Positions 12,010 through 63,457 of a stretch of 64,000 nucleotides of DNA are shown here, in pieces. The translations under genes were made by a program, and so were the position numbers. Within the stretch, counting starts at the first letter, position 1; every line of letters starts with the position of its first letter. The stretch spans positions 5,642,001-5,706,000 of the forward strand of contig NZ_CP094357.1 in NCBI RefSeq assembly GCF_014779555.2. The letters run 5' to 3'. Source of the stretch: Lysobacter capsici. GTDB lineage: Bacteria; Pseudomonadota; Gammaproteobacteria; Xanthomonadales; Xanthomonadaceae. A model generated the notes under the pieces. That model saw only the letters and a list, made by a program, of their open reading frames with translations, searched no databases and was not told the DNA's origin.

Positions 12010-13845
12010 ATGCACGGTGGCGGTCTAGAACTCGCGTTGTTGTTTCTGCTCGCCGCGGTCATCGCGGTGCCGGTGTTCCGCAAGTTCGGGCTGGGCGCGG
12101 TGCTGGGCTATCTGGCCGCGGGCGTGGTGCTGGGCCCATATGGCGTGAAAGTCATCAGCGACGCCGAACCGGTGCTCGCGGCCTCGGAAATCGGCGTGGT
12201 CATGATGCTGTTCGTGATCGGCCTGGAGCTGTCGCCGGCGCGCTTGCGGGTGATGCGCAAGCCGGTGTTCGGCGCCGGCGGCCTGCAGGTGCTGCTCAGC
12301 GGCCTGGCCCTGGGCGCGCTGGCGATGTTCGGCGGCCACCTGGGCTGGAAGGCGGCGACCGTGGTCGGCCTGGGCCTGGCGCTGTCCTCGACCGCGGTGT
12401 GCCTGCAGTTGTTGTCCGAACGCAAAGGGCTCGCCGCGGATTACGGCCGGCTCGCGTTCGCGATCCTGCTGTTCCAGGATCTCGCGGCGATCCCGCTGCT
12501 GGCGGCGATTCCGCTGCTCGGCAAGTCCGCGGCGGTGGAAGGCCTGAACTGGATCGCGGTGGCCAAGGCGGTCGGCGCGATCGCGGCGGTGGTGTTCGGC
12601 GGCCGGGTGCTGCTGCGCCAGGTGTTCCGGATCGTCGCGCGCACCCAGATGCCCGAGGTGTTCACCGGCGCGGCCCTGCTGACCGTGCTGGGGTCGGCGT
12701 GGATCCTGCAGACCGCCGGGCTGTCGGCCGGCCTGGGCGCGTTCCTGGCCGGCGTGCTGCTGGCCGATTCGGAATTCCGCCACGAGCTGGAATCGCAGAT
12801 CGAGCCGTTCAAGGGCCTGCTGCTGGGCCTGTTCTTCATGGCCGTGGGCATGAGCATCGACCTGCAGCGCGTGCTCAACGAGCCGCTGCTGATCGGTTCG
12901 ATCGTGGCCGCGTTGCTGACGGTGAAATTCCTGCTGCTGTTCGGCGTGGGCATCAGCGCCGGCGGCCTGGACAAGCGCGGCGCGTTCCAGTTGGCCACGG
13001 TGATGTCGCTGGGCGGCGAGTTCGCCTTCATCGTGTTCAACGAAGCGGTCAAGGCCAATCTGCTGGACGATCCGACCCGCGACCGTCTGATCGCCGCGGT
13101 CGGCGTGTCGATGGCGCTGACCCCGCTGCTGGTGATCGGCGCGCAGCGCATGCTCGACGCCGCGCCCGCGGCCAAGCCCAAGCGGCCGTTCGACGAGATT
13201 CCCGATCATCACCCGCAGGTGCTGATCGCCGGCATGGGCCGGTTCGGCCAGATCATCGCGCGCCTGCTGGTCGCGCACCGCACGCCGTTCATCGCGATCG
13301 AGAACAGCGCCGAGCAGGTCGATTTCATGCGCCGCTTCGGCAATGCGATCTACTACGGCGACCCGGCCCGGCCCGAACTGCTGCGTTCGGCCGGCGCGGC
13401 CCAGGTCAAGATCTTCGTGATCGCGATCGACGACCGCGACAGCGGCATCCGCACGGTGCGCACGATCCGGCGCCTGTATCCGAAGGCCAAGGTGTTCGCC
13501 CGCGCGCGCGATCGCCGGCACGCCTGGGACCTGATGGACCTGGGCGCCGAGCCGATGCGCGAAACCTTCCATTCCAGCCTGAAACTGGGCGAGGACGTGC
13601 TGATCGAACTGGGCGTGGAAGCCGAGACCGCGCGCGACCATGTCGAGCGGTTCCGCGAACTCGACGAACGCATGCTCGAGGCGCAGTACCTGGTCCACGA
13701 CGACGAAGACGCGCTGATCCAGACCGCGCGCGATGCGCGCAAGGAACTGGAGGAGTTGTTCAACGCCGATCGCGGCGAGGGCATGTTGGCCGACATGGTC
13801 GACAAGCGGGCGACGCCGGCGCCGGAGAATGCGACGCGGCATTGA
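12010..13845 (+). CDS. CPA2-family K+/H+ antiporter, KefB/KefC type with RCK domain
   Basis: An integral membrane antiporter of 611 residues. Residues 1 to ~385 carry about 12 hydrophobic helices with CPA2 features (LGYLAAGVVLGPYG, FVIGLELSP, FQDLAAIPLL, LGAFLAGVLLADS, SLGGEFAFIVF). A cytosolic RCK/TrkA-N domain follows from about 400, with the Rossmann loop GMGRFGQ at 408-414. In this family the RCK domain gates K+ efflux in response to glutathione adducts or nucleotides. The start is ATG 12010 after an AGGAGGT site at 11999-12005; an in-frame GTG at 12004 lies inside that site. No KefF/KefG flavoprotein gene is adjacent, so regulation cannot be read from context. KefB versus KefC is not decidable here. 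Confidence 0.9.
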   Translation: MHGGGLELALLFLLAAVIAVPVFRKFGLGAVLGYLAAGVVLGPYGVKVISDAEPVLAASEIGVVMMLFVIGLELSPARLRVMRKPVFGAGGLQVLLSGLALGALAMFGGHLGWKAATVVGLGLALSSTAVCLQLLSERKGLAADYGRLAFAILLFQDLAAIPLLAAIPLLGKSAAVEGLNWIAVAKAVGAIAAVVFGGRVLLRQVFRIVARTQMPEVFTGAALLTVLGSAWILQTAGLSAGLGAFLAGVLLADSEFRHELESQIEPFKGLLLGLFFMAVGMSIDLQRVLNEPLLIGSIVAALLTVKFLLLFGVGISAGGLDKRGAFQLATVMSLGGEFAFIVFNEAVKANLLDDPTRDRLIAAVGVSMALTPLLVIGAQRMLDAAPAAKPKRPFDEIPDHHPQVLIAGMGRFGQIIARLLVAHRTPFIAIENSAEQVDFMRRFGNAIYYGDPARPELLRSAGAAQVKIFVIAIDDRDSGIRTVRTIRRLYPKAKVFARARDRRHAWDLMDLGAEPMRETFHSSLKLGEDVLIELGVEAETARDHVERFRELDERMLEAQYLVHDDEDALIQTARDARKELEELFNADRGEGMLADMVDKRATPAPENATRH

Positions 13846-13934
13846 GGGACGGGTGGCGTCGTGGGTTTGGTTGCGGCGGCTGTGATCGGCGGTTGCGATT
13901 GACCGCCTGATCGTGGCGCCGGGACTTTAGTTGG

Positions 13935-14015
13935 CGCGGTCGCGGCTCGCGCCGCTCCTACAGTCGCTTCGTCCCATCACGCGGCCCTGTAGGAGCGGCG
14001 CGAGCCGCGACCGCG
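13935..14015. repeat. REP-like inverted pair (29-bp arms)
   Basis: Arms 13935-13963 and 13987-14015 are perfect reverse complements (CGCGGTCGCGGCTCGCGCCG...CTACAG) with a 23-nt spacer. The same 29-mer recurs in the array at 23.8-24.5 kb and, in variant form, at 26.15 kb. It lies between the convergent antiporter and ankyrin genes. Confidence 0.9.
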
Positions 14016-14104
14016 AAACTTCAAACGCCCGCGCAGGCCCCGACAGCGGCCGCGAACTCAGCCGCGGCCCGCCGGCTCATGCCCGATCGCTTCGAACCGA
14101 AGCT

Positions 14105-17100
14105 TCAGTTCCCCGGCCCGCGCAAAAACCGCGCCATCGATACCCCGTTGCCGGCATTGCCCGACGGCGTGCTCGGCGCGAATTCGGCCGCGATATCGAC
14201 GAAACCGCGCATCACCGCGATCTCGCGCGGGGTGCGGTTGAGCGCGTCGCGCAGGTCCGGGTTGGCGCCGTTGCGCAGCAGGCGCTGCACCACGCGCAAC
14301 AGGCCGTGCAGCGCGGCCAGGTGCAGCGGGCCGAAGCCGCGCGGGTCCTGCACGTCGAGCGAGGCTTCGTGATCGAGCAGCAGTTCCAGGCCGGCGATCA
14401 GCACGTCCTCGTCGGCCGCGGTGCCCGGTTCGGCGCGCGCGCCGAGCAGCAGCAGCAGCGGCGTCGCGCCCGCGGCGGACTGGTCGGCGTCGACGCCGGC
14501 CAGCAGCAAGGTGTCGAACAAGGCGACCAGACGGCTGCGTTCGCGCGCGGTGAAGCCGAACATCGCCGCGCAATGCAGGGCCATGCGGCCTTGCGCGTCG
14601 CGCGCCTGGACGTCTGCGCCGGCGGCGAGCAGGCGCGCGGCCAGGTCGGTCAGGCCGAGCGCGCAGGCGACCATCAGCACGGTCAGATCGCCGGGCAGGC
14701 GCTGTTCCAGCGAGGCGCCGGCCGACACCAGCCGGTCGACGATTTCGCCATGGCGCATGCTGACCGCCGCCGACAGCGGGGTCGCGCCGGAATTGGCCGC
14801 GCGCTGCGGGTCGGCGCCACGCGCGAGCAGCAGGTCCACGACCGCGCGATGACCGCCACCGGCGGCGCGCAGCAGCGCGGTGCAGCCCTGACTGTCGGGC
14901 GAATCGACCGACAGGCCCAGATCGAGCAAGCGTCGCACCGCGTCGGCGTCGCCGACGATCGCCGCGGCCGGCACGTCGGCGGCCTGCAGCGGACGCCGCG
15001 GCAGCGCCCAGCCGCGCCAGTCCAGCCAGTCGGCCAGATCGCGCCGGCCCGAGGCCAGGGCCACGCCGAGCGGGGTCTGGCCGTCGGCGGCGAGCAGATT
15101 CGGATCGGCGCCGTGCGCGACCAGCCGCTTGAGCATGCCGTCGCGGCCGAGCGCGGCGGCCAGATGCAGCGCGCTCATGCCGTGGCTGTCGCGGGTATTG
15201 AGGTCGACGCCGGCGGCGAGCAGGCGCTCGAGCAGGCGCGACCAGCCCAGCCGCACCGCGATCGCCAGCGGCGGATCGCCGGCCGGGGTGCGCGAAAACG
15301 CATCGGCGCCGCGTTCGAGCAGATCGAGCGCGAACTGTTCCAGCCCGCGCGCGGCCTGATCGCCGGCCGAGCAGGTCGCCAGGAACCGGCCCAGGCCGCC
15401 GCGGCCGGCCGGCGACACGCCGTGGCGCAGCAGCGCCTGCAGCGCCGGCAGCGAGGCCGGGGCCTGACCGAGCAGCGCGAACAGCACGGTATCGCCGTGG
15501 GCGTCGTAGACATTGGCGTCGGCGCCCTGGCCGAGCAGCCAGTCGATGCGTTCGGCGGTCGGTACGTGGCCGTCTTCTTCGAACAGTTGCGCGCCCAGTT
15601 CGGCCGGGCTCAGCAGCTTGGCCAGCCCGGTCAGTTCCGAGGCGCGGCCGTCGCGCAGGCCGTCGCGCAGCAGCGCGGCCGGCATGCGGTCGACGATCAC
15701 CCGCTCGCCGTCGGGTGCGTCGCTGTCGCCCTCGCCGCTGACCGCGGTCGGCAGCGGATAGGCGCGATCGAGCGCGGCGACCAGCGACCAGCGTCCGGCC
15801 TCGGCGGCGCGATCGACCGCGCGCTTGCCTTGGCGGTCGCGCAGTTCCGGATCGATGCCCAGGTCGAGCAGACGCACCACCAGCGGCGGCGAAGCGGTTT
15901 CGGCCTGGCAGGCCAGGATCAGCGCGCTGGCGCCGTCGGCGTCGAGCGCCTTGGCCTCGGCCGCGCCGCCTTGCGGCAGGTGTTCGAGCAAGCGTTCCAG
16001 CACCGCCGCGCGACCGCCGCGCGCGGCCTCGAGCAGCGGCGTGCGCTGCAACCGGTCGATCGCGTTGGCGTCGGCGCCGGCCGCCAGCAGGGCGGTGACG
16101 ATATCGAGATGTCCGGCGAACGACGCGGCATGCAGCGCGCTGCGGCGCTGACCGTCGCGCGCGTCGATCCGCGCCTTGTGCTTGAGCAGCAGCAGCGCGC
16201 CGGCCGGATCGTCCTCTTCGCCGCCGGCCGCGGCCAGCAGCGCCGGCACGCCGTCGGCCTGTTCGGTCTTGGCGCCGCGCTCGAGCAGGAACTTGGCCAG
16301 GCGCCAATTGCCGCTGGCGCAGGCCACGCCGAGCGGCGACAGGCCGTCGTGGTTGAGCGGGTCCAGATCGGCCTGGGCGTCGCGCAGCAGCGCGGCCACG
16401 CCCGGGTCGGAGCTGCGCGCGGCGTGGTGCAGCGGGGTGTTGCCGTCCAGGTCGGCCAGGCGCGGGTCGGCGCCGTTGGCCAGCAGGGTCATGACCGCGT
16501 CGGGGCGGCCGTGCCAGCTGTCGCGGGTCGCGGCCAGCAGCGGGGTCATGCCGGCGGTGGCGGCGTTGAGATCGACGCCGCGGGCGATCAGCTCGCGCAG
16601 CAGGCGCAGGTCCGGCAGCACCGCGGCCAGCACCGGCAGGCTGCGGCGGTCGCGCTCGTCGCCGATCGGCGCGGCGTCGATGTCGGCGCCCAGCTCGATC
16701 AGTTCCAGCGCGCGCTCGACCTTGCCGGTGCGCGCGGCGGCGTACAGCGCCGGCTCCAGCGGGTCGTCCTCGCCGAGCAATTCGTCGGCGTTGTGGACGG
16801 TGTCGAGTTCGGGATCGAACTCCACGCCCGGCAGCGCCTGCGCCGGGGCGATCGTCTGCAGCAGCACGTGCAAGGCCGGCGAGGCCAGCGCGAACACGAC
16901 CGCGAGCGACCAGCGCACCGCCTCGCTCAACAACCCCGGCCAGGCCAGCACCAGCGCCAGCCCGGACAGGCCGGCGACGATCGCCGCCACGCCCAGCCCG
17001 CGCCAGGCGCCGACATCGAGATCGGCCAGGCGCGCCCACTGCGGCGCCAGCGCCGCGCCGTCGCGCTCGGCCGCCTGCCACAGTGGCCACAGCCGCCACA

Positions 17101-51440: not shown

Positions 51441-54161
51441 TCAATACACCAGCGACCAACTCATCGTCTTCAACGCGAACACGAACCAGACCGTCGCCAC
51501 GCAAGCCGCCGCGATCGCCACCGCGCACACCCGCCGCAGGCGCTGCAACGGCCCCCGCCACGCGGCGCGCGCGTTGAGGCAGGCGACGATCGCGATCGGC
51601 ACGCTCAGCAATCCCAGCAACTGGGCCAGACGCATCCAGCCATCCAGGCCGCCGTCGAGCGCGCGAACCGAAGCCTCGGCGCGGGCGAGCAGCCACCACC
51701 ACAACCCGGCCAGCGATAGGTTGGCGATCAGGCCGAACATCGTCAGCAATCGCAGATCGCGCTCGCGGCCGTCCAGACGCAGACGACGCTGGGTCTGGTA
51801 GCGCACGATCGCGGCGATCGGCCACAGGCACAGCGCGAGCGCCTGCACGCCCAGGGTCGCGAACAGCAACGGCAGCATCCAGCCGGGCGAACGCCAGCCC
51901 GGGACCGGCTGCAGCCACATCGCCGCGGGCACGTCGTCGCTGCTGATCGCGACCACCTCGGCGCCGCTCATCTTCGCCGCGAGCCGGCTGTCGCCGCCGA
52001 CTTCGCGCCACACATACGGCTCGATCTCGCGCCAGCGCTTGATCCGGCCGTCGCGGCCGCGCAACGACGACACCGCGATCGTGTCGTCATCGTTCAAGAC
52101 CACCGTCGCGCCGCCGAACAAGCGCGCCATCGCCAGGAAATTGCTGGCCGAGCCGCGGCTGTTTTCGTAACGCCCGCGCAACTGCTCGCCGTGCAGATGC
52201 GCGGTCGGCAGGGTCGGCAGGTCGGCGAGCGGACTGGGGTAATAACGCTGGATCACGCCTTCGACCAGATCGCGATGCAGCGCGCGCCCGGCGCGGGCCG
52301 GGCCGTCGGCGGATACGAACACGCCGAGCCGGTGCGCCGGCAACAGCATCAGGCTGCTCTGGAACGCTTCGGTGGCGCCGCCATGACCGATCACCACCGG
52401 ACCGCGGCCGTCGCGACGGAAAAAGCCCAGCGCCATCGCATCCAGCCCCGGGATCGGCCGCAGCGCGGTCGCCTGCATCGATTGCAGGGTGTGCGGCTGC
52501 AGGATCACGTCGCTGCCGTAACGGCCCTGATCGAGCTGGGCGAGCATGAAATGCGCCATGTCCTCGCCGGTGCTCGACAGGCTGCCGGCCGGCGCGGGAT
52601 TGACCAGTTCGAACGGCACCGGCGCGGCGCCGGCGGCGACGTAGCTTTGCGCCATGTCGCCGGCCAGGCCCTTCGGCAAGGGCTGACGGAAACTCGAACG
52701 GTGCATGCGCAACGGTTCGAACAGATGCTCTTCGACGTAGTCGTCGAACGGCTGGTCGGCGACGCGTTCGACGATGTAACCGGCCAGGGCCGCGCCGTAG
52801 TTCGAATACGCCGGCACCGTGCCGGGCGCGTAGATGCGGCGCGGCTACACCGCCTTGAGGTAGTCGCCGAGCTTGCGCAGGCGCGAGGGATCGGCGGCGA
52901 ACAGATGTTTGCTCGATTCCTCGAAGCCGGCGCTGTGGGTCATCAGATGACGCAGGGTGATCGACTGGCCGTAGTAGTCGCGGATCTTGAAGTCCAGGTA
53001 GGTGTTGACGTCCGCGTCCAGGTCGAGCTTGCCGCGTTCGACCAGTTGCATCACCGCGGTCCAGGTGAACAGCTTGGAGATCGAACCCGGCCGCAGCAGG
53101 GTGCGCGCCGGGTCCATCGGCTTGCGCCGCTCCACGTCGGCGTAGCCGTAGCCCTTGGACAGCAGCAGCTGGCCGTCCTTGACCACCACCACGACCGCGC
53201 CGGCCAGGCCGCCGCGCGCGATCGCCTGCGGCACCAGGCCGTCGACATAGGCTTCCAGATCGGCCGCGCCGAGTTGCGGGATCGGCGCGGCGCCGACGGC
53301 CTCGACCAGGATCGCGCCGGGCGCGCTGGCGGCGCTCGGGTCGAGCGCGAGGTCGGGGGTGGCGGCCGACGGCAGCGGCGGCAGCGCTTCGATCCTGGCC
53401 GGGTCGGACGCGTGCAAGGGGTTGGCCGAGCTCTGGGACGCGGTGGGGTCGGTGTCGGACAGGACCACCGTGGGCGCGGGTTGCGATGCCGGCGCAGGCG
53501 ACGACGGCGGTGGCGCGGGCGAGGGACGCGCAGTCGGCAGATTCGCTGGCGCGGGTGGCATCGGTGCGGGTTTGGCCGCGACCGCCCCGGCAGGCGCGGT
53601 GCTCGGCGCGGCGGGTTTCGGCGATGGCGGGCTGGGTTCCGGCTTGCGCGTGGCTGCGGCCGGGGTCGATGGGGTCGGCGCGTTCGAGGGCTTGGCCGGC
53701 GACGGCGACGGCCTGGTCGCGGCCGCCGGCGCTTTCGCGGGCATGCGCGGCGCGGGCGCGGCGCGCGACGGGGCGCCGGCCCGGGCCGGCGTGGTTTCGA
53801 TGCGGCTGGGCGCGGCGGAAGCGGGCGGCGCGGGGATCTGCACGCCCGCGGGCGGCGCGACCCTCGGGGTGGCGGCGGCGCGCGCGATCGCCGCGGCCGG
53901 CGATTCGCGCTCCTGCGGCGGCGGCGGCCGCAGTGGCTCGCTCGGTGTCGGGCTGGGCGGCGGCGCGGGCGCCGGGCGCAACGGCAAGGCCGTGGTGGTG
54001 GCGGGAAACGCCGACGCCGGGGGGCGGGTGTCGGTGGCGCGGGTCGATGAGGCGTTCGTGGCCGGCGGCGTCTGCTGCGCTCCGGCCGAGCCGGCCGCGA
54101 GCAACAGCCCGCCCACGACACCCGCCGCACCGATGGCGCGCATCCAACGTTTGGACTTCAT
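51441..54161 (-). pseudogene. Serine beta-lactamase/PBP-like (family S12) gene interrupted by an in-frame TAG
   Basis: Two frames, 54161-52845 (438 residues) and 52817-51441, are one gene: the reading frame continues unbroken across a single TAG at 52847-52845. The first part has a signal peptide (ends AGSAGAQ), an unusual ~250-residue Pro/Ala/Ser linker, and the start of the S12 domain with SISK (Ser-x-x-Lys nucleophile) and RHLMTHSAGF. The second part has YSN (Tyr-x-Asn), HGG, then four C-terminal membrane helices (LLFATLGVQALALCLWPIAA...). The TAG falls between LKAV and PRRIYAPG, where relatives have a sense codon. The truncated product would lack YSN and HGG and be inactive. A sequencing error or stop read-through is possible. 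Confidence 0.85.
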
Positions 54162-54588
54162 GGTTCCCCCGACCTTGCGCCCCGAGCCGCGCGCGAGCGC
54201 GTTCAGGACGCGGTCGCGGACGATGCCGACCGAGCGTCGGCGCGCAGAGTGTAAGCGCGGAAACCGCTGAATTCAGGCCTGATTCGCGTCATCCGGGGCG
54301 GTGGCGGCGATGTTGTGGCGAAGCATGTCGACGCGAATCACAACGAAGTGCAGCAGGTATGTTTACCGGCACGCAAAATGTCGCCAGCTCTCCCGTGGAC
54401 GCGCGCGAACCAGCGCCGAGCGTCGACCTCGTCGCAAAACCGCACTTCAACCGTGCGCTTCCGATCCAGCCGCGTCCGCTTTCCAAACCGCCAAACGTAT
54501 TTCTCAACATGAACATCCCGCCAGGCATCGCGCTTGGCAAGGCAGGGGCGGCCGCCTAGAGTCGCCGTGACCCCTCTCGGCCGCCTCC
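54162..54588. other. Divergent intergenic region, no gene seen
   Basis: 427 bp between the beta-lactamase locus (leftward) and the XRE-cupin regulator (rightward). Its right half is less GC-rich than its surroundings (ACGTATTTCTCAACATGAAC near 54497), where a promoter or autoregulatory site for the regulator could lie. Nothing definite. Confidence 0.4.
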
Positions 54589-55299
54589 ATGCCCGCCAAG
54601 CGCAGCAAGCACCTCACCTCCGCCGCGCCGACCACCACCCACAACCCGGGCGTGGCCCTGCGCGCGCTGCGCCGTCAGCGCGGCTGGACCCTGGCCGAGA
54701 TCGGCGCGCGCACCGGTCTGCCGATTTCGACCCTGTCCAAGATCGAGAACGGCAAGATGTCGCTGAGCTTCGACAAGCTCACCCGCATCGCCCAGGGGCT
54801 GGAAGTCGATATCGGCGAATTGTTCTCGTCGCAGTCGCCGGTCGGCAACGACACCTTCAGCGGACGCCGCAGCATCACCCGCGCCGGCGAGGGCTATGCG
54901 ATCCGCACCGAACACTACGATCACCTGTACCCGGCTTCGGAACTGCTCAACAAGCGGCTGGTGCCGATCATCGCCGAGGTCCACGCGCGCTCGCTGGAAG
55001 AGTTCGGCGAACTGATCCGCCACACCGGCGAGGAATTCGCGCTGGTGCTGGAGGGCGTGATCGAACTGCACAGCGAGCTGTACGCGCCGGCGCGGCTGGA
55101 GGCCGGCGACTCGATCTATTTCGACAGCGCGATGGGCCACGCCTACATCGCCGCCGCGCCCGGCCCCTGCCGCGTGCTCGCGGTGTGCTCGGGCGGCGAG
55201 TCGCATCTGCGCGACGCGATGCTGCGCCAGAACGGCGCCGAGGCCGCGCGCCCGGCCGCCGGCCGCGGCGCCAGGAAACCGCGCGCCGACGACGCCTGA
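54589..55299 (+). CDS. XRE-family transcriptional regulator with C-terminal cupin domain
   Basis: A 236-residue cytoplasmic DNA-binding protein. HTH at about 22-76 (LRALRRQRGWTLAEIGARTG, STLSKIENGKMSLSFDKL), linker, then a cupin ligand-binding domain at about 125-210 (HTGEEFALVLEGVIELHSE, LEAGDSIYFDSAMGH). Such PuuR/HipB-cupin-like proteins sense small metabolites and usually control nearby or amino-acid/amine genes. It converges on the end of the putative RiPP operon but shares no promoter with it, so a link is only positional. Confidence 0.9.
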   Translation: MPAKRSKHLTSAAPTTTHNPGVALRALRRQRGWTLAEIGARTGLPISTLSKIENGKMSLSFDKLTRIAQGLEVDIGELFSSQSPVGNDTFSGRRSITRAGEGYAIRTEHYDHLYPASELLNKRLVPIIAEVHARSLEEFGELIRHTGEEFALVLEGVIELHSELYAPARLEAGDSIYFDSAMGHAYIAAAPGPCRVLAVCSGGESHLRDAMLRQNGAEAARPAAGRGARKPRADDA

Positions 55300-55467
55300 G
55301 CCGCCGCGCCTGCCACAAATCCCGGCGCAACGCAGCGCGGTACGCAAGCGTCGTTGGCCCGTCATTGCCGATAGCGGTCACAAGACCCGCAGACAGCGAT
55401 CACGGCGCGCGGTTTTCGATTCCGGAAAATGACATTCACATGACGGTGCGATCGCGGCGTAGTGCGT

Positions 55468-56790
55468 TCAATCGCGCAGCCGCCGCAAGCCGTGGCATTG
55501 GTCCAGCCATTCCAGCAAGGCGTTCGCCGCGCGGCGATGCGCCGCCGTGCCGCGCAGCAACTCGCTCACCCGCGCGGTTTCGCCGCCGTGCATCCGCGCC
55601 AGCAGCGCGCGCTCGACCGCCGCATCGCCCTGCACGCGCAGGCCGTGGCCGTTGATCGCGAACTGCCACGCATCGCGATCGCGTCGCTGCAATACCCGCT
55701 CGCCGGTGGACAAGGCGATGCGTTGCGCCGGCGTCAAAGCGCGCGCGCGTCGGCGCGGCGGCACCGGTTCGAAACCACCGGCCGACAAGCGCTGCAACGA
55801 CAGCGCGCCGATTCGCGCGGCCAGGGCGCGCGGATCGGTGAGTTGCGCGCTCAGGCGCCAGGCTTGCGCCAGCGCCAGCGGCAATTGGTCGGCGAGCACG
55901 CCGTCGGCATCGATCGCATCGCGCGCGCTCACCGGCACGTCGTCGCGCATGAGCGCGCGCAGCAGTTGCGCGGACGGATCGATCAAGGCGTCGGCCTGGC
56001 CGATATCGACCAGCAAATCCTCCAGTTCGTAGACCGGCCGATGCTCGGTGCGCGGCACGCCAAGATTGACGCTGGTGGCGACGCCGCCGCCGATGCTTTC
56101 GCCGACGTGGTAGTAATCGGCCGGCCAATACAGCACGTCGCCGGGCTCGGCCTCGACCACGAACGAACCGGCCAGATGGCCGCGGTAATCGGGCAAGGTC
56201 GACACCGCGTCGGCCCACGGCTTGGCGGTCCAGAAGCGCATGCGCTTGCGGCCTTCTACCGGGATCATGAAGGTCGCGAAGCGATCGCGATGCACGCCGA
56301 CCGGGGTGGATTCGTAATTGCCGTGGAACAGCGTGGTGATCGCGCCGGTGATCGGCAGGCCGGCGTGACGCCACAGCGGCGCGAAGAATTCGCGCTCGCT
56401 GCGCCACAGCGCGAATCGATAACTGTGGAAGGCGCTGATCACCAACGCATAGCGCCGCTCGCCGAGCGCGCCCAGCATGCGCTGGCGATACCCGGCCATC
56501 GAGCCGTCTTCGCGTCGCGGCATCCACGGCGTGGGATCGAGTTGTTGCAGACGATCGAGGGTGACCAGGCTGTTGTCGGGTTCGCCGGGCAGGCGGCGAC
56601 GGCTGCGCGCGGTCGCGGCCAGCGCGCTGCGGAACACTTCGTCCAGCGCGAACGGACGGCCGTGGGCGACGCCCTTGAACAGCACCGGTCGGCGGTCCCA
56701 GTCGTCGCGCACGAACGCGGCCCAGTCGAGCGATTCACGGACGTGCAGATCGGGAGCCGGCGGATCGGTCATGCGCAAGTCCGCGCTCAT
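55468..56790 (-). CDS. JmjC/cupin-like 2-oxoglutarate Fe(II) oxygenase, intact iron site
   Basis: 440 residues. The JmjC-type double-stranded beta-helix spans about 25-245. The iron triad is complete: His167-x-Asp169 in PVGVHRDRF and His228 in WPADYYHVGES. The C-terminal ~100 residues (330-440, with WQFAINGH) form a winged-helix-like part as in YcfD/RoxA-type ribosomal oxygenases, which hydroxylate protein side chains. The start ATG 56790 overlaps the upstream stop in an ATGA junction. It is the last gene of a five-gene operon with two precursor-like peptides and a LanM-type dehydratase, so peptide hydroxylation is the likely role; that is inference. Confidence 0.82.
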   Translation of the reverse strand: MSADLRMTDPPAPDLHVRESLDWAAFVRDDWDRRPVLFKGVAHGRPFALDEVFRSALAATARSRRRLPGEPDNSLVTLDRLQQLDPTPWMPRREDGSMAGYRQRMLGALGERRYALVISAFHSYRFALWRSEREFFAPLWRHAGLPITGAITTLFHGNYESTPVGVHRDRFATFMIPVEGRKRMRFWTAKPWADAVSTLPDYRGHLAGSFVVEAEPGDVLYWPADYYHVGESIGGGVATSVNLGVPRTEHRPVYELEDLLVDIGQADALIDPSAQLLRALMRDDVPVSARDAIDADGVLADQLPLALAQAWRLSAQLTDPRALAARIGALSLQRLSAGGFEPVPPRRRARALTPAQRIALSTGERVLQRRDRDAWQFAINGHGLRVQGDAAVERALLARMHGGETARVSELLRGTAAHRRAANALLEWLDQCHGLRRLRD

Positions 56791-57983
56791 TCGGCCTCCT
56801 CGCCGCTGCGCAGCACCGCGCGCAACGCGTACAGGCGCTGCAGCAGATCGAGCACGCCGCGGTCGATACGGCCACGGCGTTGCGAGCGGCACAGGTCGGC
56901 GACGCGTTGCCGTTGGCCGTCGCGCAGCTCATCGAGCAGTTGCTGCGCGCGCGGATGCTCGGGCATGGCGAATACATGGCCGTTGATTGCCCACACCCAG
57001 CCCTCGCCATCGCGCAGACGCAGCAGCGGGCTGCGCGGGTCGAGTTGCACGCAATCGTCTTCGTGCAGGGTCGATTCCTCGCGCGGCGCCGGCACCGGTT
57101 CCAGCGCCCATGCGCTGGCGCGCGCGGCCCAGGTCAGGCGCAACGCGTGCTCCAGACCGCCGCCGGCCACCGCCGCCGTCGCCGCCGCGCCCACTCGGGT
57201 CAACGGCGCGAGCGCGGCGATGCCGTGGCGACCCGCGCGCGGCGGAAACGCCAGCATCGCGACGCGTTCGTCCTCGCCGAGCGCATCGTCGACCTGTTCG
57301 GCCAGCAGGTTCTTGGTCGCGATCATCGCGTCGGCGGCGTGGGTGGGAATCGCCAGGGCCAGACCGAGAGTGGCGCCGTCGTCGGCTTCCTCGTACCAGC
57401 GGCGCCCGGGCCAGCACAGCAGTTCGCCGGGTCGCGCGCGCAGGACTTGCTCGGGCGCGCGCTCGCGTCGCGGACGCCTGCGCCACAGCCGCACCTCGCT
57501 CGCGCCCAGCAGCGGCAGGCGCAAACACGCGTGGCGCGGGTCCAGGCGCGCGCCGAGCGTTTGCGGCTGCGCGTCGCCGATCCACAACGCCGCGTCGACC
57601 GGCAACGCGGGACAGCCGATCGCCGCGAACAAACCCGCGAGCAGGTCGCGTGTCGCCGACCACAAACGCTCGTCCAGAAACAGCGGCTGGCTGACCCGCA
57701 ACTGGAACCGCGCGCCGTGCAGGCGTTCGCGCACCCGCCGCACATAGGCCGGCGCATCGCGATCCTCTTCGCCCGGCAGCAGATCGCCGGGCGCGCGCAT
57801 CAATCCGCCGTCGAGATAAAACCGCACGTCCGGCAACGCCATGAAGCGGGTGCCGGCGCGGAACGGCGCGGCCGCTTGCACGATCAGGGCGAACGCGCGC
57901 TCGGGCGTGAGCCGGTGGGCGACACCCGGCAGGCAGTACGGGCGCCGATCCCAATGCGGCAGCAACGGCGACCAATCGATCAT
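56787..57983 (-). CDS. Degenerate JmjC/cupin-like paralogue, iron ligands lost
   Basis: 398 residues. Same architecture as the downstream oxygenase: N-terminal HWDRRPYCLPGVAHRLTPE resembles DWDRRPVLFKGVAHGRPFAL, and the C-terminal WVWAINGHVF matches WQFAINGHGL. Aligning the core, the first iron His is Arg146 (LGARLDP) and the distal His is Tyr197 (CWPGRRWYEE); only Asp148 remains. It should not bind iron, suggesting a non-catalytic subunit, leader-binding partner or scaffold. ATGA overlaps at both ends (57980-57983 and 56787-56790) couple it to the dehydratase and the active oxygenase. Confidence 0.78.
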   Translation of the reverse strand: MIDWSPLLPHWDRRPYCLPGVAHRLTPERAFALIVQAAAPFRAGTRFMALPDVRFYLDGGLMRAPGDLLPGEEDRDAPAYVRRVRERLHGARFQLRVSQPLFLDERLWSATRDLLAGLFAAIGCPALPVDAALWIGDAQPQTLGARLDPRHACLRLPLLGASEVRLWRRRPRRERAPEQVLRARPGELLCWPGRRWYEEADDGATLGLALAIPTHAADAMIATKNLLAEQVDDALGEDERVAMLAFPPRAGRHGIAALAPLTRVGAAATAAVAGGGLEHALRLTWAARASAWALEPVPAPREESTLHEDDCVQLDPRSPLLRLRDGEGWVWAINGHVFAMPEHPRAQQLLDELRDGQRQRVADLCRSQRRGRIDRGVLDLLQRLYALRAVLRSGEEAE

Positions 57984-60409
57984 GACGCGGCCCCGTTCGA
58001 TGCGAACGTCGCGCGAATGCGTTGCGCGTACTCGGCCAGAGGTTCCAGACCCATCTCGCGACGGCGCGCATCGACCTGCGTCGGCCGTTCGATCGGGCAC
58101 GGCACCAGCGCCGAACCGCGACGCCGGAACTTGGTGCCGAAGCATTGCCTGCGCCCGCGCTGCACGCGCAAGGCATCGGTGAGATAAGCCAGATCGCGCA
58201 GGCTCATCTCGCCGTCGCGCGCGGCCTGTGCGATCAACGTCAGGCATCGATCCTGAAACTCGCGCGGCCCGTCGGCGTGCTGCAGCAATCGGCACGCGGC
58301 CGCCGCCGCATCTTCGCCGACCAGGCTGCGGCCGGGCCAGCCATGACGATCGACGACCTCGCGCAGCCACGCCATCGCCGCCTGCACCTGCGCCTGCAAC
58401 TGCGCTTCCAATGCGGTATCGCTGAAACCGCCGTCGCTCCACGGCGTGCGCAAGGCCGTATCGATGCGATCGATGCGCAGCAGGCGTTCGCGGATCGCAT
58501 CGGCATCGTCGAGCGCGTCGTCGTCGGCCGGCGTGGTCGCATCGGAGATCGCCTCGATCCGCAGCCCGATCGTTTCGCCGGCCCATCGGTACACCAGCCG
58601 CCGGTCTTCGCCCGGCCACTCGAACGCGACCTCGCCGTCCTGCGCGCCCTGCCATTGCAGACGCACGCCCAGGCGCGGGTCGTCGAGTTCGCCCAGCAGC
58701 CCGCCGCGCGCGCTCAGCTCGGGCAGCACATAGGCGACCGCGTCGCGCAGCGCGACGCCGAGTTGCAGCAGATCCCAGCTGTCGCCGGCCAAGAACTCCG
58801 GCGACGGATTGATCTCGTCGCCCGCGCGCGGCTGCGCCCCGACCCCCTGCGGCGTCCAGGCCTGCGGCGGCGGCGCGAGCGCCAGCAGCGGCGCGTCGGC
58901 CTGGATGCGGCGGAAGAAATACGGCACGTCGCCGCGCCGCAGTTGCGCGCGCTCGCTGGCGCTGAAGGCCGGCGCGGGTTCGTCCGATTCCGTGGTCGCG
59001 GCCGCGACGCCGAACGGATCGCGCGCCACGGCGTAATCGGCGGTCGCGCGCACCAGCACGCGGGTGTAACGGCCGCGCACGGCGCGGCGCAGATCGCGCT
59101 GCACGTCGTCGCGATGCAGATGCACCAGCATCCACAGATCGAACATGCCGCGCAGGAACTCCAGCGGATACGCGCCATACCCCGCCTTGCCTTCGCGATC
59201 CACGACCAGGCTGCGCGCCTGCTCGCGCCGCCACGGACGCACCGTCGCGCGCAGCCGCCGCACGCCGTCGCCATCGGCGAAGAACGCCACGGCCGGGCCG
59301 TCGATCTCGCCCGTCAGCTTGCGTTCCAGACCGGCCGGATAGCGGCCGTGATCGCGCTCGCCGGTCACAAGGCCGGTGTCTTCCAGGCGCCGCGCCGGAA
59401 ACAGGCACACTTCCAGATCGACCGGGATCAGCATCGTCTCGCCGTCGCGTTCGCCGCACAGCACATTGCCCGGACCGAGATCGACCAGACCGAAGCCGAA
59501 GCAGGCCGCGGCGAGGGAACCGGCGCGATGCCAGAACCGCCGTGCCTGCCGCGCCGGCAACACCGTCGCATGCACGCGCCCGTGCGCGGCCGGCAAACAC
59601 CGATAACGGCCGGGCGGTTCGATCCATTCCTGCCACAGATAGGCCGCGCGATCGCCGCCGCGGCCATGGAACACGCGCAGCGTCGGCAGACGGATCGCGC
59701 CCGAGGCCGGCGCCAACCGGTTGAGCCGCGCGAACACGCCGCCGCCATCGTGTTCGGCGAGAAAAGCGATTTCGCTGTCGGCCGGGCGCGGCTTGTAGGC
59801 CAGCGCGCCGCCGCGTTCGAACTGCAATCGCAGCACGCTCTGGCGGCCGTTGTGGGTTTCCTCGGGATTGGCCCACAGCGCCTGGACGCGGCCGTGATAC
59901 CCATGATCGGCCAACACGCCGCCGCGGCGGTCGCGCGCGAGCCGGCGCAGGAACAGGCGCAGGAAGTCGCGATGACGTTCGCCCAGCTCGCGCAGCCGCG
60001 ACGGCACCCGGCGCCCGCTCAGGCAGATCAGCAAGGCCTCGCGCACCACCGGCGCATGCAGCGCGCCGTTGTCGAGCGACAACGCGGCGGCGGCGACCGT
60101 CACGGCATGGCGCCGCGCGAAGGCCTTGCAGTCGCGATCGAGAATGTCGAGAAATTCGCCCCAGCGCCGCAGCCGTGGATCGCGCAAGGCCACACCGATG
60201 CGCGCCGCATCGCGCGGCCCTGTCCACGCGCCGGCCGGTTGCAGCAGTCCGTCGTCGTCGATGCGCACCCGCGGCGGCCACCACCACGCCTCGCCGTCGC
60301 GCGTGCTCAACGCGGCCAGCCAGCGGCGCAATACCGACGATGATTCGGGCTCGACCGGGGCTGCAGCGCGAGCGGCCCGGGCCGGCAGTTCGATCGACAA
60401 ATCGCTCAT
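57980..60409 (-). CDS. LanM-type dehydratase domain (DUF4135) fused to a DUF6624-like domain, no LanC cyclase
   Basis: 809 residues. Residues ~120-600 match the dehydratase half of class II lanthipeptide synthetases: ETHNGRQSV (184-192), AYKPRP (204-209), DLGPGN (310-315, in place of DxHxEN), VDLEV (330-334), RVLVRAT (450-456) and DVPYFF (494-499). From CylM work as I recall, Lys, Asp, Asn and Glu of these motifs serve phosphorylation, and Arg/Thr of RxxxRxT serve phosphate elimination; all are present except the DxH His, here Gly312. Residues ~683-800 (GWPGRSLVGEDAAAAA, LLQHAD, LAYLTDALRV, CFGTKF) fit DUF6624. The usual C-terminal LanC domain is absent. GGAG lies 4 nt before ATG 60409. Confidence 0.8.
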   Translation of the reverse strand: MSDLSIELPARAARAAAPVEPESSSVLRRWLAALSTRDGEAWWWPPRVRIDDDGLLQPAGAWTGPRDAARIGVALRDPRLRRWGEFLDILDRDCKAFARRHAVTVAAAALSLDNGALHAPVVREALLICLSGRRVPSRLRELGERHRDFLRLFLRRLARDRRGGVLADHGYHGRVQALWANPEETHNGRQSVLRLQFERGGALAYKPRPADSEIAFLAEHDGGGVFARLNRLAPASGAIRLPTLRVFHGRGGDRAAYLWQEWIEPPGRYRCLPAAHGRVHATVLPARQARRFWHRAGSLAAACFGFGLVDLGPGNVLCGERDGETMLIPVDLEVCLFPARRLEDTGLVTGERDHGRYPAGLERKLTGEIDGPAVAFFADGDGVRRLRATVRPWRREQARSLVVDREGKAGYGAYPLEFLRGMFDLWMLVHLHRDDVQRDLRRAVRGRYTRVLVRATADYAVARDPFGVAAATTESDEPAPAFSASERAQLRRGDVPYFFRRIQADAPLLALAPPPQAWTPQGVGAQPRAGDEINPSPEFLAGDSWDLLQLGVALRDAVAYVLPELSARGGLLGELDDPRLGVRLQWQGAQDGEVAFEWPGEDRRLVYRWAGETIGLRIEAISDATTPADDDALDDADAIRERLLRIDRIDTALRTPWSDGGFSDTALEAQLQAQVQAAMAWLREVVDRHGWPGRSLVGEDAAAAACRLLQHADGPREFQDRCLTLIAQAARDGEMSLRDLAYLTDALRVQRGRRQCFGTKFRRRGSALVPCPIERPTQVDARRREMGLEPLAEYAQRIRATFASNGAAS

Positions 60410-60472
60410 CGCACTCCGCGGCGACGTCCGTGTGCGGGGCGTCGACGCGCGCGGCGCGCGAAGACGGCGAAC

Positions 60473-60505
60473 GCATCGCGGCCGGCGTCGGGCCGGCCGC
60501 GATGC
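60473..60505 (-). promoter_or_regulatory. Perfect 14-bp hairpin between precursor and enzyme genes
   Basis: Arms 60473-60486 and 60492-60505 (GCATCGCGGCCGGC and complement) with a 5-nt loop. It lies 25 nt after the stop of the second precursor gene and 63 nt before the dehydratase start. No U tract follows, so it may be a partial terminator or 3' stabiliser that keeps precursor mRNA more abundant than enzyme mRNA. Confidence 0.7.
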
Positions 60506-60529
60506 GAGTGATTCAAAGCCGTCGCCGGC

Positions 60530-60679
60530 TCAGAGCAGGCAATACACGCGGATGCAGGTGCGCGCGCGATAGTTCGCCGCGCTCGGCGACTTGGTCTGCA
60601 TTTCGCCGATCTGCAAGGCGCTGGCCTTGCGCTTGGCCGGCAGCGGCTTGTGCGCGGTCGAGGCTTTCTTCATTTTCAT
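60530..60679 (-). CDS. Putative RiPP precursor peptide B
   Basis: A 49-residue peptide. GGAG with 8-nt spacing precedes ATG 60679. The basic N-terminal part has STAHK (7-11), shared with the neighbouring peptide as ATAHK. LQI at 22-24 and K..P at 30-32 are also shared. The C-terminus is Tyr37-x-x-Arg-Thr41-Cys42-Ile-Arg44-Val-Tyr46-Cys47-Leu-Leu. Dehydratable Thr/Ser next to Cys suits a LanM-type enzyme. No GG or GA protease site. It lies between peptide A and the dehydratase gene on the same strand. Confidence 0.75.
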   Translation of the reverse strand: MKMKKASTAHKPLPAKRKASALQIGEMQTKSPSAANYRARTCIRVYCLL

Positions 60680-60731
60680 GTGGCGTTCTCCAGTGCGGTG
60701 TTCGAAGGCGTAAGCGGTGGCGACCCGCGGA

Positions 60732-60884
60732 TCAGACGCAGTAGATGAAACGGCTGCAGCTGCGCGGCGCGTACTGGCCCTGTTGCGGGGCCTTCTTCTC
60801 GAACTGCGCGGGGGTGAGCTGCAACTTGGCGGCCGACGGCTTGGACGCGGAAACGGCCTTGTGGGCGGTGGCGATCTGCTTCAT
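60732..60884 (-). CDS. Putative RiPP precursor peptide A
   Basis: A 50-residue peptide, first gene of the operon. AAGGAG sits 7 nt before ATG 60884, the best ribosome site in the cluster. N-terminal ATAHK (5-9), LQL at 21-23, K..P at 30-33. The C-terminus is Tyr38-x-x-Arg-Ser42-Cys43-Ser-Arg45-Phe-Ile-Tyr48-Cys49-Val. The pattern Y-x-x-R-[ST]-C-x-R-x(1,2)-Y-C is shared with peptide B despite otherwise diverged sequence, which marks the C-terminus as the probable core. Cys spacing differs by one residue between the two. Confidence 0.77.
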   Translation of the reverse strand: MKQIATAHKAVSASKPSAAKLQLTPAQFEKKAPQQGQYAPRSCSRFIYCV

Positions 60885-61283
60885 GTGAACTCTCCTTGAG
60901 ACGACTCGTTGTCTGCGCGGAGCGCCGGCGGCGCGGCCGCGAACGATGTGCCCGACGGTGATGAATCACGCAGCAGCGCGATCGCCGCAAGGCGTTCCGA
61001 CTCTAGCCGAAGCCTCCGCGCCGACTGTTTTTATCTGTCCAATCCGTGAGCCGGTTCTCACGACGCGGCCTGCGTCTGAACGCACGCAAACGAACGGACC
61101 GGACCGCGACAGCGAAAAAATCCCTTGAAAACAGCGCGATCGAGCCGATCGTACGATCGGCGATGGCTGCCGGCGATTGTGCGTTTGCAACAAGAACCGG
61201 CGACGGGCGGCGAATACGCCTTGCGACCGGCTTAACCGTTCATCCCGTCGGCGCCGATGACGCGGACAGCGCCGGCGCCGCGC
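60885..61283. other. Upstream region of the RiPP operon, with an 18-bp palindrome
   Basis: 399 bp between peptide A and the DUF218 gene, both leftward. 61021-61140 is relatively AT-rich (for example GATAAAAACAG on the minus strand) and probably holds the operon promoter, but no consensus -35/-10 pair with good spacing is evident. A perfect palindrome GCCGATCGTACGATCGGC at 61144-61161 is a possible operator or the terminator of the DUF218 gene. No frame is convincing. Confidence 0.5.
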
Positions 61284-62147
61284 TCACTTCAGGCGCGAGA
61301 GCATGCGCCGGTTGCCGGTCAGTTTCGCCCAGCGCGCGCCGACGTCGCTCATGCACACGTAGGCCGCTTCGCCGGCCAGCCGCAGCAGCATGCGCGGCCC
61401 CAGTTCCAGCCGCGGCTCGGCCGCGCACAGTTCCCAGTCGTAGCCCAGATGACGCGCGAACCAGGCGCAGCGCGCGAGGTGATAGCGGCTGCTGAGCAAG
61501 GTCACCCGCGAGCGCATGCCGTCGCCGAGCACGATCCGCGCGTTGCGCAGGTTCTGCAGGGTGTCGCGCGAATCCTGTTCCAGCCGCAGCGGCGCGTCGT
61601 CGCTCAGGCCGCGCGCGACCAGACCGCGGCGCGCGAGTTCGGCTTCGCTGGGTTCGCCGATCGGGCCGCCGCCGAGCAGCAACATGCTATGCGGCGGACG
61701 CTCGCGCCACAGCGAAACGGTGCGGTCCAGGCGGGCTTCGAAATCGCGATCGATGCGCCCGCCCGGTGCGTGCTTGCCGAACAGCAGCACGCACTCGCCG
61801 CGCTCGGGCCGGCACGGCGCGGTGCGCGCGACCCGCAGCACGTGCAGGAAATAGCCGACATAGACCAAGCCGGCGCTGAGCACGCACACCGCGCCGGTCA
61901 CCACCGCGACATGCAGGATGTCGCGATCGCCGAACAGTGCGATGCGGTGGGCGGTGCGGGTGGTCACGGCGGTGGGATCGATGCGGAAGACGGGTCGGGA
62001 TGGATCGATCCGGCGAACGCGCCGGGCCGCTGCGAAGCTGGGGTCGGTCGGCCACGATGGCACTGAGGCGATCGGCCCGAACCCGCGCGAGCCGAAACCG
62101 CGTCGCCGCGAACCGGCGCCGACGATGAACCAGCCCGCCCCCTTCAT
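61284..62147 (-). CDS. DUF218 / YdcF-like membrane protein
   Basis: A protein with one or two N-terminal hydrophobic segments (VAVVTGAVCVLSAGLVYVGY) and a DUF218 domain: ECVLLFGKHAP, SMLLLGGGPIGEPSEAELAR, EQDSRDTLQNLRNARI and VTLLSSRYHLARC. Family members are inner-membrane proteins linked to envelope polysaccharide processing or SAM binding (YdcF); the role here is unknown. The start is uncertain: ATG 62147 is given, but the Arg-rich first ~60 residues look non-family and a GTG at 61967 is plausible. Divergent from the ketosynthase genes. Confidence 0.75.
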   Translation of the reverse strand: MKGAGWFIVGAGSRRRGFGSRGFGPIASVPSWPTDPSFAAARRVRRIDPSRPVFRIDPTAVTTRTAHRIALFGDRDILHVAVVTGAVCVLSAGLVYVGYFLHVLRVARTAPCRPERGECVLLFGKHAPGGRIDRDFEARLDRTVSLWRERPPHSMLLLGGGPIGEPSEAELARRGLVARGLSDDAPLRLEQDSRDTLQNLRNARIVLGDGMRSRVTLLSSRYHLARCAWFARHLGYDWELCAAEPRLELGPRMLLRLAGEAAYVCMSDVGARWAKLTGNRRMLSRLK

Positions 62148-62251
62148 GATACGCGCCGCCGTCGCGGCCGGCCGCTGCCGCCGCTTGGCTATACTTCCGC
62201 CCTCACCGCCAGCAACGACACACACAGATAGTGCCATCCAACGTCTCAGCG

Positions 62252-63457
62252 ATGCCGCCTCTGGCGATCCGCGCCTACACCGCGACCACCGCCCTCGGCC
62301 GCGGCCTCGATGCCCAGGCCCGCGCCCTGCGCGAGCGTCGCAGCGGCCTGCGCCGCAACGATTTCGCCCCGCTGGCGCCGGGCGAGGCGCCGCTGGATTG
62401 CTGGATCGGCCGGGTCGAAGGGGTCGAGCAGGCGCCGCTGCCGGCGCATCTGGCGTCGTGGGAATGCCGCAACAACCGCCTGGCCTGGCTGAGCCTGCAA
62501 CCCGACGGCCTGCTCGAGGCGATCGCCGCCGCGGTCGCGCGCCACGGCGCCGAGCGGGTCGCGGTGATCGTCGGCACCTCGACCTCCAGCATCGGCGCGA
62601 CCGAGGAAGCCTATGCGCGGCTGGAGGGCGAGGATCGGCATTTTCCCGCCGATCTGAGCCGTCCGCTGCTGCATACCCCGCACTCGCTGGGCGCCTTCGT
62701 CGCCGCCGCCACCGGTTTGAGCGGCCCGTGCGTGACCGTCGCCACCGCCTGCTCGTCCAGCGCCAAGGTGTTCGCCCAGGCCGCGCGGCTGATCCAGGCC
62801 GGCCTGGCCGACGCGGCCCTGGTCGGCGGCGTCGACACCTTGTGCGGCAGCGTGCTGTTCGGTTTCAACTCGCTGCAACTGGTGTCGAGCGAGCCGTGCC
62901 TGCCGTTCGATGCGCACCGCGTCGGCCTGTCGCTCGGCGAGGCCGGCGGGTTCGCCGTGCTCGAACGCTGCGACGGCGACGAAGCGCCGGGCTCGCTGCA
63001 ATTGCGCGGCTACGGCGAATCCAGCGACGCCCACCACATGTCCTCGCCGCACCCCGAAGGCCTCGGCGCGCGGCTGGCGATGATCGATGCCCTGGCGCGC
63101 GCCGGCATCGGCGCCGAACGCGTCGGCTATCTGAATCTGCACGGCACCGCGACCCCGGCCAACGACCAGATCGAAGCGTTCGCGGTGGCCTCGCTGTTTC
63201 CGCCCACGCTGCATGCCAGTTCGACCAAGGGCTGGACCGGCCACACCCTCGGCGCGGCCGGCATCGTCGAATCGGCGATCGCGCTGCTCGCGCTGCAACA
63301 CGGCCATCTGCCCGGCATCCTCAACAGCCGCGTGCCCGATCCGGCCAACGGCCCGCAGATCCGCTTCGACAACGCCGAGGCGACGATCGACTACGCCATG
63401 AACAATTCCTTCGGCTTCGGCGGCAACAACTGCTCGCTGGTGTTCGCGCGCGCATGA
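62252..63457 (+). CDS. Beta-ketoacyl-ACP synthase, aryl-polyene/xanthomonadin type
   Basis: About 401 residues (ATG 62252; an in-frame GTG at 62231 is an alternative start). The complete condensing triad is present: Cys in VTVATACSSS, His in LHGTATPAND and His in KGWTGHTLGAAG. The C-terminal NNSFGFGGNN is normal for the KAS fold. It is coupled by an ATGA overlap to a second, chain-length-factor-like KAS gene, the pairing found at aryl-polyene and xanthomonadin pigment loci, which probably continue beyond the right edge. Confidence 0.88.
   Translation: MPPLAIRAYTATTALGRGLDAQARALRERRSGLRRNDFAPLAPGEAPLDCWIGRVEGVEQAPLPAHLASWECRNNRLAWLSLQPDGLLEAIAAAVARHGAERVAVIVGTSTSSIGATEEAYARLEGEDRHFPADLSRPLLHTPHSLGAFVAAATGLSGPCVTVATACSSSAKVFAQAARLIQAGLADAALVGGVDTLCGSVLFGFNSLQLVSSEPCLPFDAHRVGLSLGEAGGFAVLERCDGDEAPGSLQLRGYGESSDAHHMSSPHPEGLGARLAMIDALARAGIGAERVGYLNLHGTATPANDQIEAFAVASLFPPTLHASSTKGWTGHTLGAAGIVESAIALLALQHGHLPGILNSRVPDPANGPQIRFDNAEATIDYAMNNSFGFGGNNCSLVFARA

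Follow-up and report, generated by a model that had tools for sequence, protein, structure and literature searches.

Five minus-strand genes at 55468-60884 of the window (the 64,000-nucleotide stretch of Lysobacter capsici DNA that was analysed, from contig NZ_CP094357.1) form an operon that, judging from its sequence, very probably modifies chemically the tails of two small peptides. The genes encode precursor peptides A and B, LanK (a LanM-type dehydratase fused to a DUF6624 domain) and two JmjC-related proteins, Jm1 and Jm2. All five were present as the original prediction had described them, and the ATGA overlaps that it had placed in the last three genes were found at two junctions, LanK/Jm1 at 57980-57983 and Jm1/Jm2 at 56787-56790. 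On balance, we consider it probable that this is an operon for a ribosomally synthesized and post-translationally modified peptide (RiPP), in which Ser/Thr residues would be dehydrated, the core would be oxidized by the JmjC pair and a thioether would be formed with or without a LanC cyclase.

Occurrence of the gene set and its precursor peptides

Homologues of the operon proteins were sought in a census of 297 genomes of the window's family, in a phylum sample of 398 genomes and in a wider scan of contigs; in both genome sets, LanK scoring was confined to the 2 or 3 best-ranked first-look candidates of each genome. LanK matches were detected in 63 of the 297 family genomes, of which 10 spanned essentially the whole protein and the others the C-terminal DUF6624 part only. 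A search of the same 297 genomes with Jm1 matched exactly the 10 genomes with a full-length LanK. In the phylum sample, the single LanK match at an E value of 1e-30 was the window's own. The contig scan was a single pass with six patterns, all derived from one protein, so that distant relatives may have been missed, and yielded 72 stretches, 25 relatives and 24 loci, comprising 2 repeats of known genomes, 19 Streptomyces loci, 2 Nonomuraea loci and 1 Sphaerisporangium locus; the closest named relative detected was Lysobacter sp. Root690 (91% identity), a genus assigned to Lysobacteraceae by NCBI. With duplicates left out (L040, which is the contig of L031, and L057, which is the contig of L036), there were 32 distinct loci: the window, 9 from its family and 22 from Actinomycetota. 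A 33rd locus, L069 of Nonomuraea gerenzanensis, was found separately and contained a peptide, LanK, Jm1, Jm2 and LanC.

Jm1 was present in 31 of the 32 loci and Jm2 in 30, the exceptions being L063 (both) and L052 (Jm2, with a partial Jm1), whose contigs end within the operon and which were left out of the Jm motif counts and trees. Both proteins were found in every locus with sufficient contig reach. The gene order LanK-Jm1-Jm2 was kept except in L037, where Jm1 lies ahead of LanK, and ATGA-type overlaps occurred at 24/31 LanK/Jm1 and 22/30 Jm1/Jm2 junctions, with start codons assigned by script. The original prediction had named, as evidence that would speak against it, homologues without small Cys-ending frames and JmjC neighbours; the opposite was observed, with a peptide at 32/32 loci and Jm1 and Jm2 wherever the contig reaches. 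The operon is a non-random, conserved unit, and the gene set spans two phyla.

The peptides were identified with the regular expression [ST]C.{1,9}[YFW]C.{0,5}$, applied to frames ending in the zone upstream of LanK. Matches were obtained for 40 of the 642 upstream-zone frames of the 32 loci (0.6 expected), and 8 further matches lay outside the zone, the same loci having a total of 8253 frames with the zone included. One or two upstream peptides ending in [ST]C-x(3-6)-YC were present at each of the 32 loci, and all 40 had a start codon and a Shine-Dalgarno (SD)-like site, as judged with a lax SD pattern. The aromatic residue of the motif was Tyr in all 41 peptides from 33 loci. The loci without LanC contributed 19 peptides in 11 loci (for example, SCSRFIYCV, TCIRVYCLL and TCVRVYCLPW), with 3 or 4 residues from the first Cys to the Tyr, and the LanC-bearing clade contributed 22 peptides in 22 loci (for example, GTACGTCAGVYCC), every one of which ended in YCC; L052 and L063, on contigs that end early, were assigned to the latter clade by their peptide. 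Each of the seven same-genus loci had one A-type peptide (4 residues) and one B-type peptide (3 residues), and an A-type homologue preceded LanK in all 6 loci other than the window. By eye, a motif close to LxIG[DE][LM] could be recognized both in the B-type leaders and in the actinobacterial ones (LQIGEM, LKLGEV, LAIGEL; LVIGDL).

When peptide A was compared among the seven loci, all 44 codon-pair differences in the last 11 codons were synonymous (0 non-synonymous). The preceding 20 codons had 27 synonymous and 274 non-synonymous differences, with the reservations that the counts are pairwise and not independent and that an ungapped comparison inflates the differences in the leader. Because the last 11 codons differed synonymously only, these results strongly suggested that A is translated and that its tail is held fixed, unlike the fast-diverging core of a bacteriocin. 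Chance matches or mis-called small open reading frames (ORFs) were rejected as an explanation on the excess of peptides over expectation and the purely synonymous differences within core A. The locus had what is generally sought in a RiPP: a short precursor adjoining tailoring enzymes, with a conserved core and a variable leader. An alternative is that LanK, Jm1 and Jm2 modify a cellular protein and that the small ORFs encode upstream peptides with a regulatory function. It draws on the closest solved relatives of Jm2, the L16 arginine hydroxylase YcfD (E value of 8e-6), which acts on a ribosomal protein, and NO66 (E value of 0.002). This explanation is highly improbable in view of the conservation of the peptide C-termini between phyla, the constraint on core A, the recurrence of the peptides at all 32 loci and the presence of a LanC gene within the actinobacterial operon.

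LanK and the JmjC pair

LanK matched the Pfam families DUF4135 with 61.5 bits (cut-off of 29) and DUF6624 with 67.6 bits (cut-off of 27); no LANC_like domain was detected in it by Pfam, the C-terminal domain being DUF6624. In a profile alignment with CylM (PDB 5DZT), residues K206, D310, N315, R450, T456, H186 and E184 of LanK aligned with K274, D347, N352, R506, T512, H254 and D252 of CylM, respectively, and D331 was placed on CylM D364 by eye. K206, D310, N315, D331, R450 and H186 were invariant in 29/29 homologues, and T456 was Thr in 28 and Ser in 1. The roles of the catalytic residues of CylM were taken from PMC4550811. As most of the matches to CylM catalytic residues were kept, LanK gives the impression of a divergent enzyme that still works as a kinase/lyase. 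The dehydration domains of CylM, HalM2 and NukM sufficed for dehydration when excised, and a DUF4135 enzyme yields dehydroamino acids without lanthionine rings (PMC10676384).

Several observations told against this assignment. The score of LanK against the NCBIfam LanM model (TIGR03897) was 35.2 bits, compared to a curated cut-off of 304; the profile match to CylM, the single match of LanK in the PDB, was weak (E value of 0.16), and the aligned segment that holds the matches to CylM K274, H254 and D252 scored only -2.0 bits. The counterpart of CylM D252 (LanK E184) was Glu in 29/29 sequences, and the histidine of the DxH motif was replaced in 29/29; CylM-H349A was the one mutant of its set with remaining dehydration (PMC4550811). 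In addition, the dehydrazole enzyme CcaM needs its cyclase-like domain for activity (PMC10676384), and LanK is assumed to behave otherwise.

A comparison by eye of the DUF6624 domain of LanK with 11 stand-alone copies indicated that the QHA and [YF]G[TS][KQ] stretches are kept. DUF6624 has been noted in several graspetide groups and singled out as a biosynthetic enzyme class that may have gone undiscovered (PMC13097080), and the present operon places it in a defined context for which a precursor is already available. DUF6624-like matches lacking the dehydratase part were common, occurring in 53 of the 297 family genomes and, among the matches listed for 15 of 32 matching plasmid records, in 14/15.

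Jm2 matched the Pfam family JmjC_2 (PF08007) with 30.3 bits (cut-off of 22), and Jm1 matched no Pfam family above the cut-off. The two proteins were homologous over their full length (hhalign probability of 100, E value of 3e-40). The HxD motif and distal His of Jm2 were kept in 30/30 loci, as read from alignment columns with the second frame piece of L036 excluded; in Jm1, the His and the Asp of HxD were both absent from the aligned columns in all 30 loci. A joint tree of 34 sequences from 17 loci had one deep Jm1/Jm2 split; this tree and the Jm1 tree were quick versions with long branches for L037-L039. Because Jm1 and Jm2 separate once in the tree, the HxD-less copy is, on this evidence, as old as the sampled set. 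Recent decay of Jm1 was rejected, the loss of HxD being common to 30/30 loci on one deep branch. Jm1, called degenerate in the original prediction, is a conserved sister protein without HxD rather than a product of recent decay.

Jm1 is presumed to be inactive as an oxygenase and to have a leader-binding or structural role. Fusions of RRE-like domains to PF08007 JmjC proteins and RiPP-like contexts for bacterial relatives have been reported (PMC12710340); a precedent for a JmjC enzyme acting on a RiPP is BipG, which hydroxylates a core residue (PMC12707348). The presumed inactivity and role of Jm1 have their own difficulties. The third metal-ligand His of Jm1 was kept in 21/30 loci, so that any loss of function may be less than full; this distal His was present in the Streptomyces/Nonomuraea loci, L032 and L036 and absent in the window. 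The Jm1 of L041 has an HRD sequence near, yet not at, the aligned HxD place. Comparison of the Jm C-termini with PqqD by hhalign gave a probability of 15% for Jm1 and 0.3% for Jm2 (L088 was empty and L087 short). The retention of the third His and the HRD near the lost motif suggested that the metal site of Jm1 may have been lost in steps. The Jm2 of L041 carries the triad, with FH in place of YH. The conserved pair of an oxygenase and an HxD-less sister is open to study. In L036, two reading frames share the Jm2 gene (around 12886-14247); its two parts were compared separately, and the triad is present.

Cyclase distribution and the proposed pathway

A stand-alone LanC gene (PF05147; 156 bits in L061) followed Jm2 at 20/20 testable Streptomyces/Nonomuraea loci (19/19 plus L069). 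The WCYG and CHG motifs, which we take to be the zinc ligands, were present in 18/19 loci, L059 being fragmented. A LanC gene adjoined the set at 0/10 testable loci among the 11 of the window's kin and Sphaerisporangium, over 5 to 9 kb past Jm2; L034, whose contig ends inside Jm2, was left out of this count. The presence of LanC corresponded to one split in the LanK and Jm2 trees, with the LanC-less Sphaerisporangium as sister to the LanC-bearing clade, and as both trees are unrooted, gain and loss of LanC are indistinguishable. The predicted absence of LanC therefore applies to the operons of the window's kin and Sphaerisporangium but not to the Streptomyces/Nonomuraea version, and the LanC gene of the latter indicated that the system is lanthipeptide-related. 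Because LanC accompanies some loci of the family and not others, the two groups offer a matched comparison for when a lanthionine cyclase is needed.

These data bear on whether a class II lanthipeptide-like pathway, with a cyclase supplied in trans by a LanC or full-length LanM encoded elsewhere in the genome, makes an ordinary lanthipeptide that carries an oxidized residue. In favour of such a pathway, at least one LANC_like match was present elsewhere in 8 of the 10 LanK-bearing family genomes, the window genome had five in LanM-sized frames, the Sphaerisporangium genome had nine (two in frames of 456 and 473 amino acids [aa], and none on the LanK contig, C37), and LanC lies inside the operon in Streptomyces and Nonomuraea. 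The two remaining family genomes, G089 (97% complete) and G240 (75% complete), had no LANC_like match, and the matches of the other eight were on different contigs or at least ~300 kb off; no LANC_like match adjoined the window operon, the nearest of the five in its genome being ~300 kb away. A cyclase in trans seems possible in most genomes and, because two LanK-bearing genomes had no match, not obligatory; we regard an ordinary lanthipeptide of this kind as unlikely. The five matches in the window genome are in frames of 928-997 aa and probably represent five full-length LanM synthetases.

A second alternative is that no ring is formed or that LanK only phosphorylates, leaving a linear peptide with dehydroalanine or dehydrobutyrine (Dha/Dhb) or phospho-Ser/Thr beside Cys, possibly with a Cys-Cys disulfide or an intracellular metal or redox use. 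The lack of a cyclase adjoining the set in the window's kin, the two Cys residues and Tyr held by every core and the precedent of the dehydrazoles for dehydration without lanthionine (PMC10676384) are consistent with a linear product. So is the neighbourhood: among ORFs of at least 110 aa from about -6.5 to +9.5 kb, most of which were unannotated, no family besides LanC was common to most loci, and a recurrent exporter or protease family was not found. Phosphorylation alone is opposed by the retained matches to the elimination residues H254, R506 and T512, and the LanC-bearing sister clade suggests thioethers in part of the family. Overall, this second alternative appears rather improbable. 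The missing exporter or protease is also a gap in the RiPP pathway that we favour; because no extra family besides LanC recurs in most loci, leader removal and export, if any, may proceed through unlinked genes, and the product may be intracellular.

In the favoured pathway, the operon would supply two precursors whose leaders vary and whose core, [Ser/Thr]-Cys-x(3-4)-Tyr-Cys, is fixed. LanK would phosphorylate the Ser/Thr preceding the first Cys and then eliminate the phosphate to give Dha/Dhb. Jm2, a predicted Fe(II)/2-oxoglutarate (2OG) oxygenase, would hydroxylate a core residue while being kept on its substrate by Jm1 in a putative complex. The target is most likely the universal Tyr, and the alternative in the window's clade is the conserved Arg. 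An Arg was present between the first Cys and the Tyr in 19/19 LanC-less peptides versus 2/22 peptides of the LanC-bearing clade, a distribution that would make an Arg-directed Jm2 unsuited to both clades; the Tyr is favoured because it is universal and because the Arg, bar these two peptides, is confined to the LanC-less loci. The thiol of the Tyr-Cys pair would then add to the Dha/Dhb that precedes it by six or seven residues, forming a (methyl)lanthionine ring. Ring closure would use LanC in the Streptomyces/Nonomuraea clade; in the window's clade it may be uncatalysed or performed by a cyclase in trans, or there may be no ring.

Known systems and genomic setting

From gene content and kept motifs, the closest functional parallel would be a dehydration system of the class II lanthipeptide kind to which an oxygenase has been added. 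The resemblance to class II lanthipeptides (LanM enzymes such as CylM) includes the DUF4135 dehydratase with most kinase and elimination residue matches, the cores with Ser/Thr and Cys and the stand-alone LanC of the Streptomyces/Nonomuraea clade. In contrast to these systems, LanK has DUF6624 where the LanC domain would be and falls below the LanM cut-off, two JmjC proteins accompany it wherever the contig reaches, the core is a short YC core and no LanT-like gene was noted adjoining the set. The dehydrazoles (carnazolamide, CcaM; PMC10676384) likewise arise from a DUF4135 dehydratase that makes dehydroamino acids without lanthionine rings, but CcaM carries a fused class III-like cyclase domain, which is zinc-independent, and is partnered with a YcaO enzyme acting on azoles; Pfam detected neither YcaO nor a cyclase in the five operon genes and the two flanking genes. 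In graspetide groups 18, 20, 23 and 42, DUF6624 is a frequent co-occurring protein, and group 18 has the oxygenase pair SmaO/SmaX (PMC13097080), whereas the DUF6624 of the operon is fused to a LanM-type dehydratase and no ATP-grasp ligase was matched by Pfam among the five operon genes of the window. BipG of the biphenomycin pathway, YcfD and NO66 are likewise JmjC Fe(II)/2OG oxygenases acting on a peptide or protein residue, but the residue modified by BipG is an ornithine, within an MNIO/radical-SAM pathway, and an HxD-less sister partner is not described in the accessible part of PMC12707348.

The view of the original prediction that the combination matches no familiar RiPP class was supported: the operon lacks the defining features of LanM fusions, dehydrazoles and graspetides, and no description of the gene set was found in the part of the open-access literature that was examined, most subscription papers being outside this scope. 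Six peptide strings from the set were searched for, and none occurs in the open-access collection; the accessible parts of PMC11251773 and PMC10352776 make no mention of JmjC or DUF6624. We propose tentatively, and would not call it probable, that the set represents a new RiPP class, with a cyclase-free LanM-type dehydratase-DUF6624 protein and a JmjC pair (catalytic and HxD-less) acting on an [S/T]C-x(3-4)-YC tail, and with a cyclase gene in one clade only. In such a class, the ring of the LanC-less members would close without a cyclase, or the oxidized Tyr-Cys and the dehydroamino acid would form a linkage unlike those of lanthipeptides. A separate class could be recognized when the product has been identified. 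Its short precursors and its size of five genes make each step of the operon testable in Escherichia coli.

The features of the operon are listed in Table 1. Peptides A and B had no Pfam match, and nothing scored above the gathering score in an Rfam search of 54000-62500.

Table 1. Genes and predicted core segments of the operon (window positions)
Feature	Position	Strand	Length	Remarks
Precursor peptide A	60732-60884	(-)	50 aa	MKQIATAHKAVSASKPSAAKLQLTPAQFEKKAPQQGQYAPRSCSRFIYCV; ORF with SD-like site
C-terminal core of A, SCSRFIYCV	60735-60761	(-)	residues 42-50	conserved across loci
Precursor peptide B	60530-60679	(-)	49 aa	MKMKKASTAHKPLPAKRKASALQIGEMQTKSPSAANYRARTCIRVYCLL; ORF with SD-like site; leader motif LQIGEM
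C-terminal core of B, TCIRVYCLL	60533-60559	(-)	residues 41-49	conserved across loci
LanK, LanM-type dehydratase (DUF4135) fused to DUF6624	57980-60409	(-)	809 aa	cyclase domain absent (Pfam)
Jm1, JmjC-related, without HxD, presumed pseudo-oxygenase	56787-57983	(-)	398 aa	hhalign with Jm2
Jm2, predicted Fe(II)/2OG JmjC oxygenase related to YcfD and NO66	55468-56790	(-)	440 aa	H167, D169, H228

The host genome is a single contig of 6.24 Mb with one LanK match. A defence system was rejected, PADLOC having given nothing at an E value of 0.01 for the five operon proteins, and plasmid cargo was rejected as the window stretch had no near match in the plasmid collection. A search of that collection with the LanK protein matched 32 records, one of which, from N. 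gerenzanensis, covered at least 80% of LanK. This record, L069 (NZ_LT559118.1; 11.85 Mb), carries the complete set and is filed as a plasmid but is probably a chromosome. In L037, the cassette sits between nuo genes and a rimP-nusA-infB operon, both assigned by eye.

An XRE-cupin regulator gene (HTH_3 and Cupin_2, PuuR-like) at 54589-55299 on the plus strand is convergent with the operon. A related frame was present at the same place in 6 of the 7 same-genus loci, and the contig of the seventh (L034) stops short of it. At 51441-54161 on the minus strand, a gene judged by eye to be serine-hydrolase/beta-lactamase-like is split into two ORFs; it is a single long ORF at the same place in related loci such as L031 and L032.

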